From NCBI GenBank assembly GCA_017442855.1, contig JAFSPM010000037.1:124001-188000 (forward strand): a stretch of 64,000 nt of DNA, given 5' to 3'. The notes beneath the pieces are model-generated. The model was not told the origin of the DNA, ran no database searches, and worked only from the letters and a program-made list of their open reading frames with translations. Below are positions 21,361 through 59,939 of the stretch, in pieces. Both the position numbers and the translations under genes were made by a program. Source of the DNA: Bacteroidaceae bacterium. Lineage in GTDB: Bacteria > Bacteroidota > Bacteroidia > Bacteroidales > Bacteroidaceae. Every line of letters starts with the position of its first letter. Position 1 is the stretch's first letter.

Positions 21361-21391
21361 ATTTCTATTGCCCGTTCAAAACTATAAATAG

Positions 21392-24007
21392 TCAACGCTC
21401 AACTGTCAACCTTTTTATCTTTCCCATCAGTTGTTCCCCCAATCCGATGGTATAACCCTGTGAGACAAACACCACACGGTTGAAAGTGTCGGCTATGATA
21501 AACAACGGCAACTGGCTCTGATCATCAAGATGCATATTAGTGACAATCTGCTTCTGAATCTGATGATGGTTATCCACACCGTATATTACTGTTGATGGCA
21601 ATGCACCGAATTCTTCCTCCCGGTAATTCTGCCTTTGCGTATCATCGGTAAACAACAAAACCATAGGTCGGCCCCATGACTCGAAGTCGGCTTTCAGTTT
21701 GGCAATATCACGCAAGGCATGGTTAGTAGGCTCCTGTCCTATGCCCAAAACACCTATCACGAAATAGCCCCTGCCTGTTGTGGCAAGCACACTGGTTTCA
21801 TCACCTTCCTTCATGTACTTGCTTTCAGAATCAAATGAGCCTATCACCGTCACATCTTCCTTGGAAGGCTCACGCAAGTTCAAATCCAAAGAAGTGACCT
21901 TGCCATCTGAGATACTGAATTGCTGCATTGAAGCCAGCACTTTGCCACTTGCCATACGCTTGCCGCTCACCAACAGATAAGTTCCCTTATCTAACTGCAT
22001 TCCCTTCTTAAACGTATTACGCCAGCTCACGCCACCACCCATATCCACTTGTCCTTCATCAAAGCTTAGCAAGGTGGTAGTGCCATCGTCCTTGATACGA
22101 CTGATGGTGAAATGACTGTAATACTCCGGATTCTCCAACGAGGGCGTTGGTTGATAATTGATCACAAACGTACCGACAGGAGTAGTTGTCTGCTCAGTTG
22201 CCTCGAAATTCACATCTACCCATTTGCCTTCATGAAGATATTGTACCTTGCCTGTCACCCCATCTTTACGGGCATCAATACCAAGGCTCCATGCCACATT
22301 CACGAAGAAGATATCACGAGAGCGAGGGTCAGCCACCTTTGACCTCCACACGCCTACCGAAGACATAGCGATACGTTGGGCATACGGACCATCGACAATG
22401 TACAAACTATCGGAGCACCACTTCACTAATTCCGCTGGATTATTACGGAAACGCTGTTGGTCAGCTAGTGAGATATGTTGTTGGAAGAACTGCTTGTATG
22501 GCACCAGCATCTCATCCTCCACCCTCATATTAGGCTTACTGCCAGGTGTCTGTTGGTCTGCTAACACCTCAAGGCTCACATCCCGAAGGTCCTTGTCACT
22601 TAAGAGTGCCAGATAGTGCACGCTTCCACCATTTGTCAGATAACGCTTAATGGTTGTATGATTGCCGCTCGACTTAATTAAATAAGGCACAGCATCCAGA
22701 CTTAGCTGATGTTCTTTTACAAAAGCAATTGCCGTTTCCTCATTCATGAATGTATTCATATAGGCAATACGCAGGGAGTCTTCAGTCACCTTGCGGGCAT
22801 CATTTTGTATTCGCTGTTCATCCGTGACTTCTGGCAAGGTGTATTGTTCTATAGGAGGCACAATATCTATCTGCTCAACAGGACTGTCATCAGCAGGATT
22901 GACTTTATCCAACACTATACTAATCTCATCATCGGTACCGAAAGAAGCCTTACTATATCCATAACGTCCACCATGAGAAGCCCATACCAGCATATCACCC
23001 TTACCTGCCGTCAGGAATGTATGTCCGTCGGCATCAGTATATTTAGTCACCACTGGGCAGAACTCTGCATAGTTGTATATCATGAAATCCACACGGGCAT
23101 CTGCCATTGGTTTGCCTTGCGTATCCACCACATTGAAATCAATACGAGCCGTTGATGCATAATTATCAATCAAGTTGATTTCTGTAAAAGTATCAGACAC
23201 CAGCATCTTCTCCTCTGAACCGTTGTATTTGCCAAACACACGGGTATGCATCAGCATCGCCCTGCTGGCTGCACTGTTGAACCAACCCAAGTTCAACACC
23301 GCCTCTGGCTCACAAGCGCCCATAAACCACCACTGACCATCAGCCCAAGCTTCCACCCAAGCATGATTGTCGTCGGTATGAGCCCAACGAGGCGTATAGA
23401 CCTGACGGGCAGGAATGCCGATGGCACGCAAAGCAGCCACCGTGAAGGTGGATTCCTCGCCACACCTGCCGTATGCCGCACTGATGGTAGCCAATGGTGA
23501 GGTAGTCCGGGCATCCGAAGGTTGGTAGGTCACATGTTCATGACACCAGTGGTTCACCTCCAATATGGCCTCCTGCATACTGAGTCCCTTCACCCTTTCC
23601 TTCAGTTCCTCATAGCAGTCATGGCGGAATGTGTCAAGGTTTTCGTTGTTCACGCGGATAGGCAATACGAAATGCCGGAACAGCAGTTCAGGCACTTGCC
23701 TGCCCCACGGCATTTCTTGTTGCGCCTTGAATGACATGCGTACATTCTCCAAGAAATAATCTGTAGAATAATCCGTCATGTCAGCAATGGGCATATAGGC
23801 ATAGAGAAACTGCAAGGCCTCCAACTCTTTCGCAGAAATGCCCTCAGCTGGTGTATAGAATTGTGCGCCTACCAGTCCGATTTTCGCCTCAAAGTCTGCT
23901 ATCACTTGCTGGCGATAGTCGTTATCGCTGATAAAATGACCATCGTTGGGGTTGCAGGCAGTCAGCACTACCAGCAGTACAGTCAGCCATCCGTATAGTT
24001 TTTTCAT
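21392..24007 (-). CDS. transglutaminase-like lipoprotein
   Basis: An 871-residue predicted lipoprotein (signal MKKLYGWLTVLLVVLTAC, Cys18, then NPNDG). A transglutaminase-like papain-fold domain spans about 150-240, with Cys182 in AAYGRCGEES and His215 in DDNHAWVEAW. The remainder is beta-rich with an Ig-like region (VDTQGKPMADARVDF) and a C-terminal thioredoxin-like region (MVLLFTDDTQRQNY). Family members are thought to act as extracytoplasmic proteases or cross-linkers. It is divergent from the GH106/GH2 genes and shares their short promoter region. Confidence 0.8.
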   Translation of the reverse strand: MKKLYGWLTVLLVVLTACNPNDGHFISDNDYRQQVIADFEAKIGLVGAQFYTPAEGISAKELEALQFLYAYMPIADMTDYSTDYFLENVRMSFKAQQEMPWGRQVPELLFRHFVLPIRVNNENLDTFRHDCYEELKERVKGLSMQEAILEVNHWCHEHVTYQPSDARTTSPLATISAAYGRCGEESTFTVAALRAIGIPARQVYTPRWAHTDDNHAWVEAWADGQWWFMGACEPEAVLNLGWFNSAASRAMLMHTRVFGKYNGSEEKMLVSDTFTEINLIDNYASTARIDFNVVDTQGKPMADARVDFMIYNYAEFCPVVTKYTDADGHTFLTAGKGDMLVWASHGGRYGYSKASFGTDDEISIVLDKVNPADDSPVEQIDIVPPIEQYTLPEVTDEQRIQNDARKVTEDSLRIAYMNTFMNEETAIAFVKEHQLSLDAVPYLIKSSGNHTTIKRYLTNGGSVHYLALLSDKDLRDVSLEVLADQQTPGSKPNMRVEDEMLVPYKQFFQQHISLADQQRFRNNPAELVKWCSDSLYIVDGPYAQRIAMSSVGVWRSKVADPRSRDIFFVNVAWSLGIDARKDGVTGKVQYLHEGKWVDVNFEATEQTTTPVGTFVINYQPTPSLENPEYYSHFTISRIKDDGTTTLLSFDEGQVDMGGGVSWRNTFKKGMQLDKGTYLLVSGKRMASGKVLASMQQFSISDGKVTSLDLNLREPSKEDVTVIGSFDSESKYMKEGDETSVLATTGRGYFVIGVLGIGQEPTNHALRDIAKLKADFESWGRPMVLLFTDDTQRQNYREEEFGALPSTVIYGVDNHHQIQKQIVTNMHLDDQSQLPLFIIADTFNRVVFVSQGYTIGLGEQLMGKIKRLTVER

Positions 24008-56675: not shown

Positions 56676-56748
56676 GCCACTTTAGCTCAGTCGGTAGAGC
56701 AACGCATTCGTAACGCGTAGGTCGCCAGTTCAAGTCTGGCAAGTGGCT
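56676..56748 (+). tRNA. tRNA-Thr (CGT)
   Basis: Acceptor GCCACTT pairs with AAGTGGC; D-arm GCTC..GAGC; anticodon loop TTCGTAA (CGT); T-loop GTTCAAGTC; discriminator T. The anticodon stem ACGCA/CGCGT has an A-C mismatch at the pair next to the loop. No encoded CCA. The mltG ATG begins only 10 bp later. Confidence 0.93.
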
Positions 56749-56758
56749 CAAAACTCGC

Positions 56759-57796
56759 ATGAAGAAACGCACCATACACATTCTGATTGGCATTTTTATC
56801 GCCTTAGTGCTGGTGGCTTGTGCCATCGGCGGTGCTTTCTATTATTTCTTCATGGCACCACAATTCTTCCCCCAGCAAACTGCCTATGTCTATATTGATC
56901 GTGACGATACGGCCGACTCGGTGTATGTCAAGGTGCAGGAGGTGGGCAACGTGAAGGATTTTCATGGTTTCAAGTGGATGAGCGAGTACCGTCACTATCC
57001 TGAGAGCATCAGTACTGGGCGCTACGAGATTCGCAACGGCGAGAGTGTGTATCATGTGTTCAGCCGTATCTGGCGAGGCTATCAAACGCCTTTGAACGTT
57101 ACCATCAACAGTGCTCGCACCATGAGGAGGTTGGCCGGACAGGTGGGGCGTCAGCTGATGATTGACTCTGTGGAGATTGCCATCTTGATGTATGACTCGG
57201 CTTTTCAGGTGAAGATGGGTTATACCAAAGAGACGATGCCTGCATTGTTTATCCCTGAGACCTATGAGATGTACTGGGATATCTCGGTGGATGAGTTTTT
57301 CGAGCGTATGCAGACTGAGCATAAAAGGTTCTGGAACAACAGTCGTCAGGCCAAAGCCAAAGAGATGGGACTGACAGAGAACGAGGTATCTACCCTTGCC
57401 TCGATTGTGGAGGAGGAAACCAACAACAATCCAGAGAAACCATCGGTAGCTGGTTTGTACTATAACCGCTTGCGTATAGGCATGCCTTTACAAGCTGACC
57501 CTACCATCAAGTTTGCGCTGCAAGAGTTTGGCATTCGCCGTATCCTCAACTCTGATCTGAACGTGGAGTCGCCTTATAACACCTATCTGCACAAAGGATT
57601 GCCTCCTGGTCCAATACGCATCCCTTCTGTAGTGGGCTTGGATGCCGTATTGAACTATACACATCATAATTATCTCTATATGTGTGCCAAGGAAGACTTC
57701 TCTGGTACGCACAACTTTGCCGCCACCTATCGTGAGCACCTGAACAATGCACAGCGTTACTGGGCGGCTCTGAACAAACGTAGGATCAGCAGATGA
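56759..57796 (+). CDS. mltG: endolytic murein transglycosylase MltG
   Basis: A 345-residue inner-membrane enzyme that cuts nascent glycan strands and is thought to set their length. A single N-terminal membrane helix (ILIGIFIALVLVACAIGGAF) precedes a LysM-like region and a YceG domain with catalytic Glu218 in LASIVEEET and YNRLRIGMPLQADPTI, then GLPPGPIRIPSV. It lies 10 bp after tRNA-Thr, so it is probably on the same transcript, and overlaps nudC by 4 bp. Confidence 0.95.
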   Translation: MKKRTIHILIGIFIALVLVACAIGGAFYYFFMAPQFFPQQTAYVYIDRDDTADSVYVKVQEVGNVKDFHGFKWMSEYRHYPESISTGRYEIRNGESVYHVFSRIWRGYQTPLNVTINSARTMRRLAGQVGRQLMIDSVEIAILMYDSAFQVKMGYTKETMPALFIPETYEMYWDISVDEFFERMQTEHKRFWNNSRQAKAKEMGLTENEVSTLASIVEEETNNNPEKPSVAGLYYNRLRIGMPLQADPTIKFALQEFGIRRILNSDLNVESPYNTYLHKGLPPGPIRIPSVVGLDAVLNYTHHNYLYMCAKEDFSGTHNFAATYREHLNNAQRYWAALNKRRISR

Positions 57797-58632
57797 AATG
57801 GTTTGTATTCTATAATGGTCAACTGCTGTTACAGCAGCAAGGCGATGCTTTGCAGGTGCCTGAAGGCGACAATCCTCCAGTGCCTGTGCCTGCTGGTCAT
57901 CAGGTGCATGAGGTGACGATGGACGATGGCGTGAAGGTGAAGACTTTCGAGCTGGATAAAGAAGTGGAGGAGTTGGCTGTTCAAGCCTGCCATGAAGAGC
58001 CCACAGCACTCCTCCCCTTAGCAAGGGGAGGTGTTTGCGAAGCAAACAGAGGGGTATGTCAATGGTCAATGGTTGGTTTACGTGATTCCTTCAACTATAT
58101 CCCTTTAGAAGATTATCTCTGCGGAGGAAAAGCCTCACAGATTCTCTATTGGGACAAGCACAGTCGCTTCTGTCCCACTTGTGGGGTACCTACCGTACAG
58201 GAGACGCCCATCATGAAGAAATGTCCTATGTGTGGACTGGAAATGTATCCTCCTATCGCTACTGCCATCATTGTGCTGATTCAGCGTGGTGACGAGATAC
58301 TGCTGGTGCACAATCGTGCGTTCAAACGCGACTACTACGGACTGGTGGCTGGCTTCCTGGAGGCTGGCGAGAGTCTGGAGCAGTGTGTGCATCGTGAGGT
58401 AATGGAAGAGACAGGACTCACCATTAAGAACCTTCGATACTTTGGCAGTCAGACATGGCCCTACCCCAGCGGACTGATGGTAGGGTTCACAGCCGAATAC
58501 GAAAGCGGTACCATCAAATTGCAGGAAGACGAACTGACGGCAGGTGCCTTCTACAATCGCAATAACCTACCGCATATTCCGCAAAAGATGAGCATCGCCC
58601 GCAAGCTCATAGACTGGTGGTTGACGAAATAA
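57793..58632 (+). CDS. nudC: NAD(+) diphosphatase NudC, with repeat-derived insertion
   Basis: A 279-residue Nudix enzyme that hydrolyses NADH/NAD+ and in E. coli removes NAD caps from RNA. It has the zinc ribbon CPTCG/CPMCG (about 122-145), the Nudix box GLVAGFLEAGESLEQCVHREVMEETG (read in two parts: GFLEAGESLEQ and REVMEETG) and the NudC signature SQTWPYPSGLM. Residues about 71-88 (TALLPLARGGVCEANRGV) come from a palindromic repeat element (58011-58048) inserted in frame upstream of the zinc ribbon. It overlaps mltG by 4 bp. Confidence 0.93.
   Translation: MKWFVFYNGQLLLQQQGDALQVPEGDNPPVPVPAGHQVHEVTMDDGVKVKTFELDKEVEELAVQACHEEPTALLPLARGGVCEANRGVCQWSMVGLRDSFNYIPLEDYLCGGKASQILYWDKHSRFCPTCGVPTVQETPIMKKCPMCGLEMYPPIATAIIVLIQRGDEILLVHNRAFKRDYYGLVAGFLEAGESLEQCVHREVMEETGLTIKNLRYFGSQTWPYPSGLMVGFTAEYESGTIKLQEDELTAGAFYNRNNLPHIPQKMSIARKLIDWWLTK
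58011..58048. repeat. double-hairpin palindromic repeat inside nudC
   Basis: Two adjacent perfect palindromes: CCTCCCCTT/AAGGGGAGG around AGC (58011-58031), then TGTTTGC/GCAAACA around GAA (58032-58048). This type of element is usually intergenic in Bacteroidota; here it lies in a coding sequence and keeps the frame. Confidence 0.85.
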
Positions 58633-58638
58633 AAAACA

Positions 58639-58668
58639 ATCCCCCGCCGAATGGCAGGGGATTTGTTT
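58639..58668. terminator. bidirectional terminator between nudC and nqrF
   Basis: AATCCCC.GC pairs with GC.GGGGATT around CGAATG, with T-rich flanks on the plus strand and A-runs read as T on the minus strand. It serves convergent nudC and nqrF. Confidence 0.85.
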
Positions 58669-58670
58669 TG

Positions 58671-59939
58671 TTAGGCGAAGTTATCGAACATCAAGTTCTG
58701 TGAAGGAACGCCCAAATCATAGAGCAGACCTTCTACAGCCTTAGACATCGGACCAGGACCACACATGTAGTACTCGATATCCTCTGGTGCCTCATGATCC
58801 TTCAAGTAGTCATTATACATCACTTGATGAACGAAACCAGCTGTATATTTCACGCCAGCAGCATCAGCAGCGGGATCTGGACGGTCGAGTGCCAAGTGGA
58901 AGTGGAAGTTCGGGAAGTCTTTCTCCAATCCGAGGAAATCATCCAAATAGAATACTTCATTCAAAGCACGTGCGCCATAGAAATAGTGCATCTCACGATC
59001 TGTGGTATGCAACGTCTTACACATATGCATAATCTGTGCACGCAGAGGAGCCATACCGGCACCACCACCTACCCAAATCATCTCGCGCTTAGAATCGAAG
59101 ATTGGATGGAACTCTCCATAAGGACCACTCATTCTCACCTTGTCGCCTGGCTTCAGGCTGAAGATATATGAAGAAGCGATACCTGGACTAACATCCATAA
59201 AGCCCACCTGTGGTTTTGGCTTAAACGGAGGTGTTGCAATACGGACGGTCAACATGAAGCGATCGCCCTCAGCAGGATAGTTAGCCATAGAGTAAGCACG
59301 GATAGTTGGCGTGTCGTTCTTGCACTTCAAGGTGAACAAGCCGAACTTCTCCCATGCTGGCAAATATTCGCCCAAAGATTCCTTATCAATGTCCTTGTCA
59401 TAGTCCATTGAGTATGCAGGAATCTGGATCTGTGCATAAGAACCTGGGATGAAGTCCATGTGCTCGCCAGGAGGCAGCTGTACGATGAACTCCTTGATAA
59501 ATGAAGCCACATTCTTATTAGAAACAACAGTACACTCATATTCCTTCACACCGAGGATGCTCTCAGGAATCTTGATAGAGAGGTCGTTCTTCACCTTTAC
59601 CTGACAGCCCAGACGCCAATGGTCTTGCTGCTGTTTACGGGTAAAGTGAGAGGTCTCTGATGGCAGGATCTCACCACCACCTTCGAGCACCTGTACCTTG
59701 CACTGGCCGCAAGAGCCCTTACCACCGCAGGCAGAAGGGAGGTGAACGTCATTTGTAACCAATGTATTGAGCAAAGTGTTACCCATTTGGACATCGAGCA
59801 CCTTATCACCCCCATTAATCGTAATCTTAACATTGCCTGAAGGCACCAGATAATACTTGGCCACCAACAGGATAATGACAAGCAGCAGGATGACTACAAG
59901 GAATACCCCAATGCTCGCTAATATTAAATTCATATCCAT
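58671..59939 (-). CDS. nqrF: Na+-translocating NADH:quinone reductase subunit F
   Basis: The NADH-oxidising subunit (422 residues). An N-terminal membrane helix (about 8-30) is followed by a 2Fe-2S ferredoxin domain with Cys71, Cys77, Cys80 and Cys112 ([18 protein letters not shown]), then an FAD domain (RAYSMANYP) and an NADH domain ([21 protein letters not shown]). It takes electrons from NADH into the complex. Last gene of the operon. Confidence 0.97.

Follow-up and report, generated by a model that had tools for sequence, protein, structure and literature searches.

In a 64,000-nucleotide stretch of the genome of a Bacteroidaceae bacterium (hereafter the window), the gene nudC, which encodes an NAD(+) diphosphatase, carries a short palindromic repeat element within its reading frame (Table 1). 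The element consists of two hairpins followed by a G-rich tag and contributes 16 residues to the protein. An earlier note, made from the sequence alone, had reported two perfect hairpins inside nudC, and both palindromes were confirmed in place. The intact frame described there also held; however, the extent given (57991..58060) and the figure of about 18 added residues were both too large. Folded as single-stranded DNA, the element stretch formed exactly two adjacent hairpins with an energy of -15.2 kcal/mol, compared to a mean of -7.27 for shuffled sequences (z = -3.79), and none of 200 shuffles folded equally well. No Rfam family matched over the element at E ≤ 1 (window positions 57000 to 59000).

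Where in the protein does the element lie? It had been placed just before the zinc ribbon; in fact, the ribbon match begins at residue 123, 34 residues past the element, and the insert sits in the N-terminal NUDIX-like domain (Pfam match to residues 2 to 120). There it forms part of a wider clade-specific segment of NudC, made up of the element, non-element sequence and TCAATGG heptamers. The nudC frame is open across the element and the remainder of the gene is under purifying selection (compared to the relative G008, nonsynonymous divergence [dN] 0.071 and synonymous divergence [dS] 0.842), so that nudC looks functional.

Table 1. nudC, the captured element and its parts, in window coordinates. 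R1 is a covariance model built from 15 copies of the repeat, among them the nudC copy that it places here.
Feature	Position	Strand	Basis
nudC, NAD(+) diphosphatase, host gene	57793..58632	+	279-amino-acid open reading frame; NCBIfam NF001299, 223.6 bits (cut-off 158); Pfam NUDIX, NUDIX-like and zinc ribbon
Captured palindromic element, 48 bp, nudC codons 73-88, peptide LLPLARGGVCEANRGV	58009..58056	+	Covariance model R1; NudC alignment
Hairpin 1, CCTCCCCTT-agc-AAGGGGAGG	58011..58031	+	Perfect palindrome; single-stranded DNA fold
Hairpin 2, TGTTTGC-gaa-GCAAACA	58032..58048	+	Perfect palindrome; single-stranded DNA fold; stem varies among copies, pairing kept
3' tag GAGGGGTA	58049..58056	+	Alignment of 15 copies
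Two TCAATGG heptamers immediately 3' of the element	58059..58072	+	Sequence
Zinc ribbon, residues 123-152	58159..58248	+	Pfam PF09297, 20.7 bits, under the 24.8 cut-off

The element belongs to a multi-copy family. We compared the genome that contains the window (G000, a 2.76-Mb draft) with those of 60 relatives, 61 genomes in total. The pattern CCTCCCCTT..GGGGAGG had 20 matches at 17 places in G000, with three places matching on both strands, and the reversed control pattern had none in the 2.76-Mb genome. Fifteen copies, of 44 to 48 bp, align as YTCCTCCCC-loop-GGGGAGGT-hairpin 2-(A/G)GAGGGGTA. The core of hairpin 1 and the tag are invariant among them, but both were demanded by the pattern used to choose the copies, leaving hairpin 2 and the loops as the informative parts. 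In hairpin 2, the pairs vary on both sides at five of six positions while 100% of the cells remain paired, and its covariation score was reached by none of 500 shuffles.

Searches with R1 at E ≤ 1e-3 revealed 52 matches in G000, 43 in G008, 12 in G006, 4 in G013 and 3 in G027. One G000 match is an antisense match to the nudC hairpin itself, which leaves 51 placed copies, 43 of them extragenic and 8 in genes. Three of these eight were reassigned by hand: the gene caller was crude and missed a VapE-like frame, whose three copies were among the 46 that the script had called extragenic. The intergenic repeat family that the earlier note had supposed therefore exists; because most of its copies are extragenic, genes are avoided but not closed to it. 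R1 matches occur in at least 20 of the 61 genomes, all counts across this set being lower bounds, with 102 candidates scored per genome. At 13 loci with copies, Rfam returned only tRNAs at gathering level. The idea that the tag side of the element faces gene starts was rejected, as only 21 of the 44 script-called extragenic copies with a downstream gene (of 46) have that gene in the same direction. The genome G005 holds at least 37 copies, and the three loci examined there (L342-L344) contain facing pairs of about 150 bp, two of them with common flanking sequence.

An alignment of 30 NudC sequences (our copy and 29 from relatives), a comparison the earlier note had proposed, revealed a lineage-specific insertion and not a peptide common to all homologues without the palindrome: the element is intact in two sequences (G000 and G008), decayed in one (G027) and absent from 27. 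In the G027 copy, hairpin 1 is destroyed and the frame is still kept, with 9.5 nonsynonymous and 1.5 synonymous differences from our element. In G006 and G013, heptamers of the TCAACGG/TCAATGG type occupy the position of the element instead. The G000 and G008 elements are identical at 47 of 48 positions, and the remainder of nudC in these two genomes at 660 of 786. Synonymous changes affect 1 of 13 sites in the element compared to 85 of 168 in the remainder (Fisher p 0.003), and the element has no nonsynonymous change. The element peptide can drift, and the two intact copies are conserved at the DNA level. Tandem heptamers of the TCAATGG/TCAACGG type were observed beside the element or in its place at capture sites in nudC and in a VapE-like protein (L261, L302, L013), and the window has one further heptamer-like run at 21385-21410.

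Copies also lie in frame within unrelated proteins. In G000, five copies were called genic by the script: one in nudC, two in a 228-amino-acid frame with a weak MutS_I match, one in CoaE and one in a DUF5119 protein (L235), the last a weak partial copy that is counted among the eight genic copies and is not firm. The 228-amino-acid protein adjoins a reverse transcriptase (RVT_1; L005/L050, G000:C14:112.8-115.9 kb), which resembles those of diversity-generating retroelements. The three hand-assigned copies lie in a VapE/BT4734-like protein, where a 42-bp tandem repeat, SPSQGEELREEVAN, has grown between two oppositely oriented elements (L046, G000:C29:7921-8292); the tandem array differs in G008. 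A pyridoxamine kinase of G008 (NF005491) carries one copy, and the VapE-like protein of G006 carries a variant element at a second site, where the G000 protein is without an insert; the first site, occupied in G000, has no element in G006. Alignments of relatives to the kinase break into two pieces on either side of the insert, as do those of the closest relatives to the VapE-like protein; for these two proteins and for the reverse transcriptase-adjacent one, insert-free relatives were aligned. CoaE, whose Pfam match is split into two stretches, is a candidate case. The suggestion that such a family can create protein insertions is thus borne out by the kinase, VapE-like and reverse transcriptase-adjacent copies, with the in-frame CoaE copy as a further candidate.

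The hosts read the element differently: as LLPLARGG in NudC, in an SSP frame in four hosts (for example, SSPKLGEVSQSDGGV), as the variant ALPLRKGEYGKAGRG in G006 and in reverse in the VapE-like protein. Since the other hosts use other frames, a search for the peptide pattern LPLARGG..EAN would miss them among the captures examined. Three candidate captures were set aside: a 131-amino-acid frame in G008 and G027 (L248, L076), which is likely to be spurious; the N-terminal part of a DUF5119 protein (L230), for which the start is uncertain; and a match with four mismatches (L225). A second repeat, of 72 bp, has 42 matches in G013 and 21 each in G000 and G008 (E ≤ 0.01); it is captured in frame in the G013 VapE-like protein (L302), and a segment that looks similar by eye occurs in an unrelated G000 protein (L292). 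The data thus show a multi-copy family, a covarying hairpin 2, a lineage-specific insertion, in-frame copies elsewhere and empty orthologous sites. That nudC has captured a mobile palindromic repeat is about as close to certain as sequence data allow.

The architecture extends beyond these relatives. The pattern TCCTCCCC-N-GGGGAGGTG-N-GAGGGGTA, which again fixes hairpin 1 and the tag, matched at least 117 stretches in named genomes, and the matches listed include Bacteroidales, Sphingomonas, Sphingobium, Novosphingobium, Asticcacaulis, Roseithermus, Patescibacteria and a Chloroflexi bin. Across 90 distinct hairpin-2 regions, the fraction of Watson-Crick pairing was 0.746 compared to 0.578 with swapped arms (maximum of 500, 0.606). 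By the weaker measure of a contiguous stem, 31 of the 90 regions reached at least 5, compared to a fraction of 0.115 for swapped arms.

Which proteins accompany the repeats? When the proteins encoded at element loci were clustered, the third-largest cluster was a nuclease family with 8 of 10 members located 0 to 62 bp from copies, and later profile scans identified it as DUF559 (PF04480), which has the Vsr/EDxHD endonuclease fold. A profile search of all element loci found DUF559 in 15 frames, 13 of which have an element no more than 400 bp away; a single G000 gene, present in overlapping loci, accounts for three of the 15, and the loci had been gathered by element. PF04480 is present in 18 of the 61 genomes, and R1 matches occur in 11 of these 18 compared to 9 of the 43 others (Fisher p 0.006). 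In each of the two main carriers, the sole DUF559 gene adjoins a copy: in G000, 71 bp separate the match from the best-scoring element, located upstream of the gene start, and in G008 an element lies 21 bp from the start of the gene. The G023 match is 90 bp from one.

Twenty DUF559 loci contained 45 C-rich hairpins, with at least one in 16 of the 20, compared to 1 of 38 nudC/kinase control loci (located in G005) and 2 of 16 VapE-type loci. Ten of the 38 nudC/kinase controls come from DUF559-positive genomes, and none of these has a C-rich hairpin. With R1, the DUF559 loci yielded 50 matches at E ≤ 0.1, and the control sequence (129 kb) yielded none at E ≤ 0.2. The controls excluded the closest element-rich relatives (L009-L013, L268-L271).

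Bracketing of the nuclease gene was also observed on plasmids. From 31 plasmid records with a match, 11 were chosen (Novosphingobium, Sphingomonas, Sphingobium, Deinococcus, Cyanobacteria and Azospirillum); those left out include Sinorhizobium, most Azospirillum, Escherichia coli and Neisseria. At 9 of 10 tested plasmid loci, an inverted repeat brackets the DUF559 domain, the best spanning 56 nt (98%) and 40 nt (100%) and one being weak (74%); at three loci, the downstream arm and the 3' end of the gene or match overlap. Compared with mismatched flanks, in tests that treat pairs as independent, 20 of 29 DUF559 loci (two sets) were above the 95% level and 13 above the 99% level, whereas none of 25 nudC controls was above either. 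DUF559 was found in 78 of 148 genomes of a phylum sample (Bacteroidota), from which a further 30 loci were taken; here the flank test was weaker, with 12 of 28 loci above the 95% level. In Bacteroidota, Sphingomonadales, Deinococcus and Cyanobacteria, palindromic inverted repeats often bracket DUF559 genes, and repeats of this family or of alike architecture are associated with DUF559 genes, beside or around them, in several phyla. At one locus (L329, in G036), the DUF559 gene is repeated together with its palindromes in a tandem array that holds two or more copies of the gene.

DUF559 domains also lie in frame inside host proteins, in association with palindromic flanks. In the phylum sample, 12 of 30 best-match domains were more than 100 amino acids from both ends of the open frame, a proportion that overstates their share and is no census, since one locus was taken per genome by best match and embedded domains rank high. 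Among about 150 DUF559 matches listed, 25 were in frames of 600 amino acids or more. Of the 12 embedded cases, 9 have a C-rich hairpin on both sides and 11 on at least one. Scans of ten of the hosts identified HsdM, LeuRS, a type-ISP protein, an M23 peptidase, two DNA-methylase-like proteins, two cases of MetH and two of HsdR (at different positions); the remaining two are LeuRS by eye. Further embedded domains were found in the LeuRS of G055 and G038 and in the PglX gene of Pseudanabaena galeata. By eye, palindromic C/G-rich flanks stand on both sides of the domain in six of seven LeuRS and MetH cases and are imperfect in L364. Peptides of the SPLPLGEDLGEG type occur beside embedded DUF559 domains.

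Taken together, these data suggest that the nudC insert is probably a solo mobile palindromic element mobilized via a DUF559 nuclease. Movement of such repeats by DUF559 is the mechanism best supported by the association, the fold and the embedded cases. The protein, with its Vsr/EDxHD homing-nuclease fold, would nick or cut the DNA at the hairpins or close to them, and the element would then be copied into new sites by repair or replication. Short hairpin-only copies such as that in nudC, composed of hairpin 1, a variable hairpin 2 and the tag, would be non-autonomous and either moved in trans or remnants of ends. Entry into nudC would most simply have occurred in the common ancestor of G000, G008 and G027, and the copy may have been retained because it is in frame and in a tolerant stretch of the N-terminal domain. 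In-frame persistence would more generally reflect selection against frame-breaking insertions, rather than a frame-aware mechanism.

Several observations weigh against this explanation. Nine of the 43 genomes without PF04480 still have R1 matches, the main exception being G005, which has its many copies and no PF04480 match at 94% completeness. The sole G000 DUF559 gene (L333, G000:C37:174802-175032) looks truncated, covering profile positions 4 to 78 of 109, and in both G000 and G008 the DUF559 gene has an element upstream, and a bracketing pair was not detected (flank scores 7.0 and 9.0). The control loci come mostly from genomes other than the DUF559-positive ones, and only 3 of 28 DUF559 loci in the phylum sample exceed the 99% level of the flank test. 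The nudC element is more conserved as DNA between G000 and G008 (dS of the rest, 0.84) than a plain neutral insertion predicts. In the sequences, no transposition, cutting or target duplication was seen.

One alternative is that DUF559 and the repeats merely share insertion-tolerant niches, with the nuclease serving repair or defense and moving no repeats. The element-rich G005 fits this alternative, as do the several embedded hosts that are restriction or BREX-type genes and the Caulobacter DUF559 protein VsrA, proposed as a Vsr-like repair nuclease (PMC12907096). We nevertheless consider it unlikely, as the bracketing inverted repeats are matched to their locus at most of the DUF559 loci in the two sets tested (on plasmids at nearly all, one weakly), control genes are without them, and leuS and metH carry embedded domains with palindromic flanks. 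For VsrA, the role proposed is in mismatch repair, and palindromic repeats go unnamed in that paper (term count 0).

The repeats could instead be ordinary repetitive extragenic palindromes (REPs) moved by a REP-associated tyrosine transposase (RAYT; Y1, PF01797), with the DUF559 neighbors as passengers. The architecture is indeed REP-like: GTAG- or CGTC-tagged REPs are likewise short, high-copy hairpins that occur in inverted pairs and, in several phyla, within open reading frames (PMC3733652), and PF01797 matches were found in G006, G005 and other genomes. However, G000 and G008, which have the highest copy numbers, have no PF01797 match at E ≤ 1e-3, nor do G013 and G027 (all drafts 74 to 90% complete, in which a gene could be missed). 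Moreover, the repeats described here have two hairpins per unit and aligned ends of YTCCTCC and the tag (both demanded by the selection pattern). A GTAG or CGTC terminal tag is present in 0 of 15 aligned copies; CGTC occurs only within the hairpin-2 arm of some, on the other strand. We regard an origin as RAYT-moved REPs as improbable.

It is very improbable that the embedded DUF559 units are spliced inteins or introns, in which case the hosts would not truly be extended. There is reported precedent for DUF559/EDxHD nucleases in intein context (PMC9403480) and for EDxHD nucleases in introns (PMC3943268). Against this, no intein, Hint or LAGLIDADG domain was among the Pfam matches of 13 embedded hosts scanned (several frames being cut by locus ends), no Rfam intron or other family reached gathering level in 15 loci, and the nudC element is too short for either. 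Compared to EDxHD/Vsr-like homing endonucleases such as I-Bth0305I, the units described here have palindromic ends, no detected splicing domain, many different hosts and hairpin-only copies.

That the extra peptide is a functional feature of a NudC lineage, conserved as protein with the palindromes a by-product of codon choice, is hardly credible and already largely contradicted: it could account for the lack of nonsynonymous changes between G000 and G008, but the synonymous sites of the element are also conserved, the G027 element has mostly nonsynonymous differences, most NudC sequences are without the peptide and closely resembling repeats lie elsewhere in the genome.

The repeats described here work like the Rickettsia palindromic elements (RPEs), a likeness that the earlier note had proposed and that our results support. 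RPEs are palindromes found both between genes and in frame in unrelated proteins that have insert-free orthologues. The likeness is one of behavior, RPEs having been compared by description. Our repeats differ in the length of their aligned copies, their two hairpins, their G-rich tag, their Bacteroidota-type genome and their link to DUF559. Intragenic palindromes as such are already known from Rickettsia and from REPs (PMC3733652). We found no paper in the open-licence literature that links DUF559 to such repeats; as far as that literature shows, the nuclease link would be new.

Elsewhere in the window, a tRNA gene at 56676-56748 (Rfam match, L039:177-249; position converted) lies upstream of a gene that is presumably mltG-like.

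No enzyme is known to mobilize the protein-coding palindromes of Rickettsia. Should a DUF559 nuclease move the family described here, one small protein and short DNA substrates would suffice to test the question. Such a link would also give a role to a large protein family of unknown function, account for the peptides beside embedded DUF559 domains and point to a process that keeps supplying conserved enzymes such as LeuRS, MetH, CoaE and NudC with new segments. We regard as evenly balanced the broader proposition that DUF559 nucleases with G/C-rich palindromic ends are widespread small mobile elements that enter essential and accessory genes in frame without splicing, and whose solo ends, as in nudC, seed peptides. 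If true, this would be a third route, in addition to inteins and introns, by which a homing-type nuclease can reside within genes.
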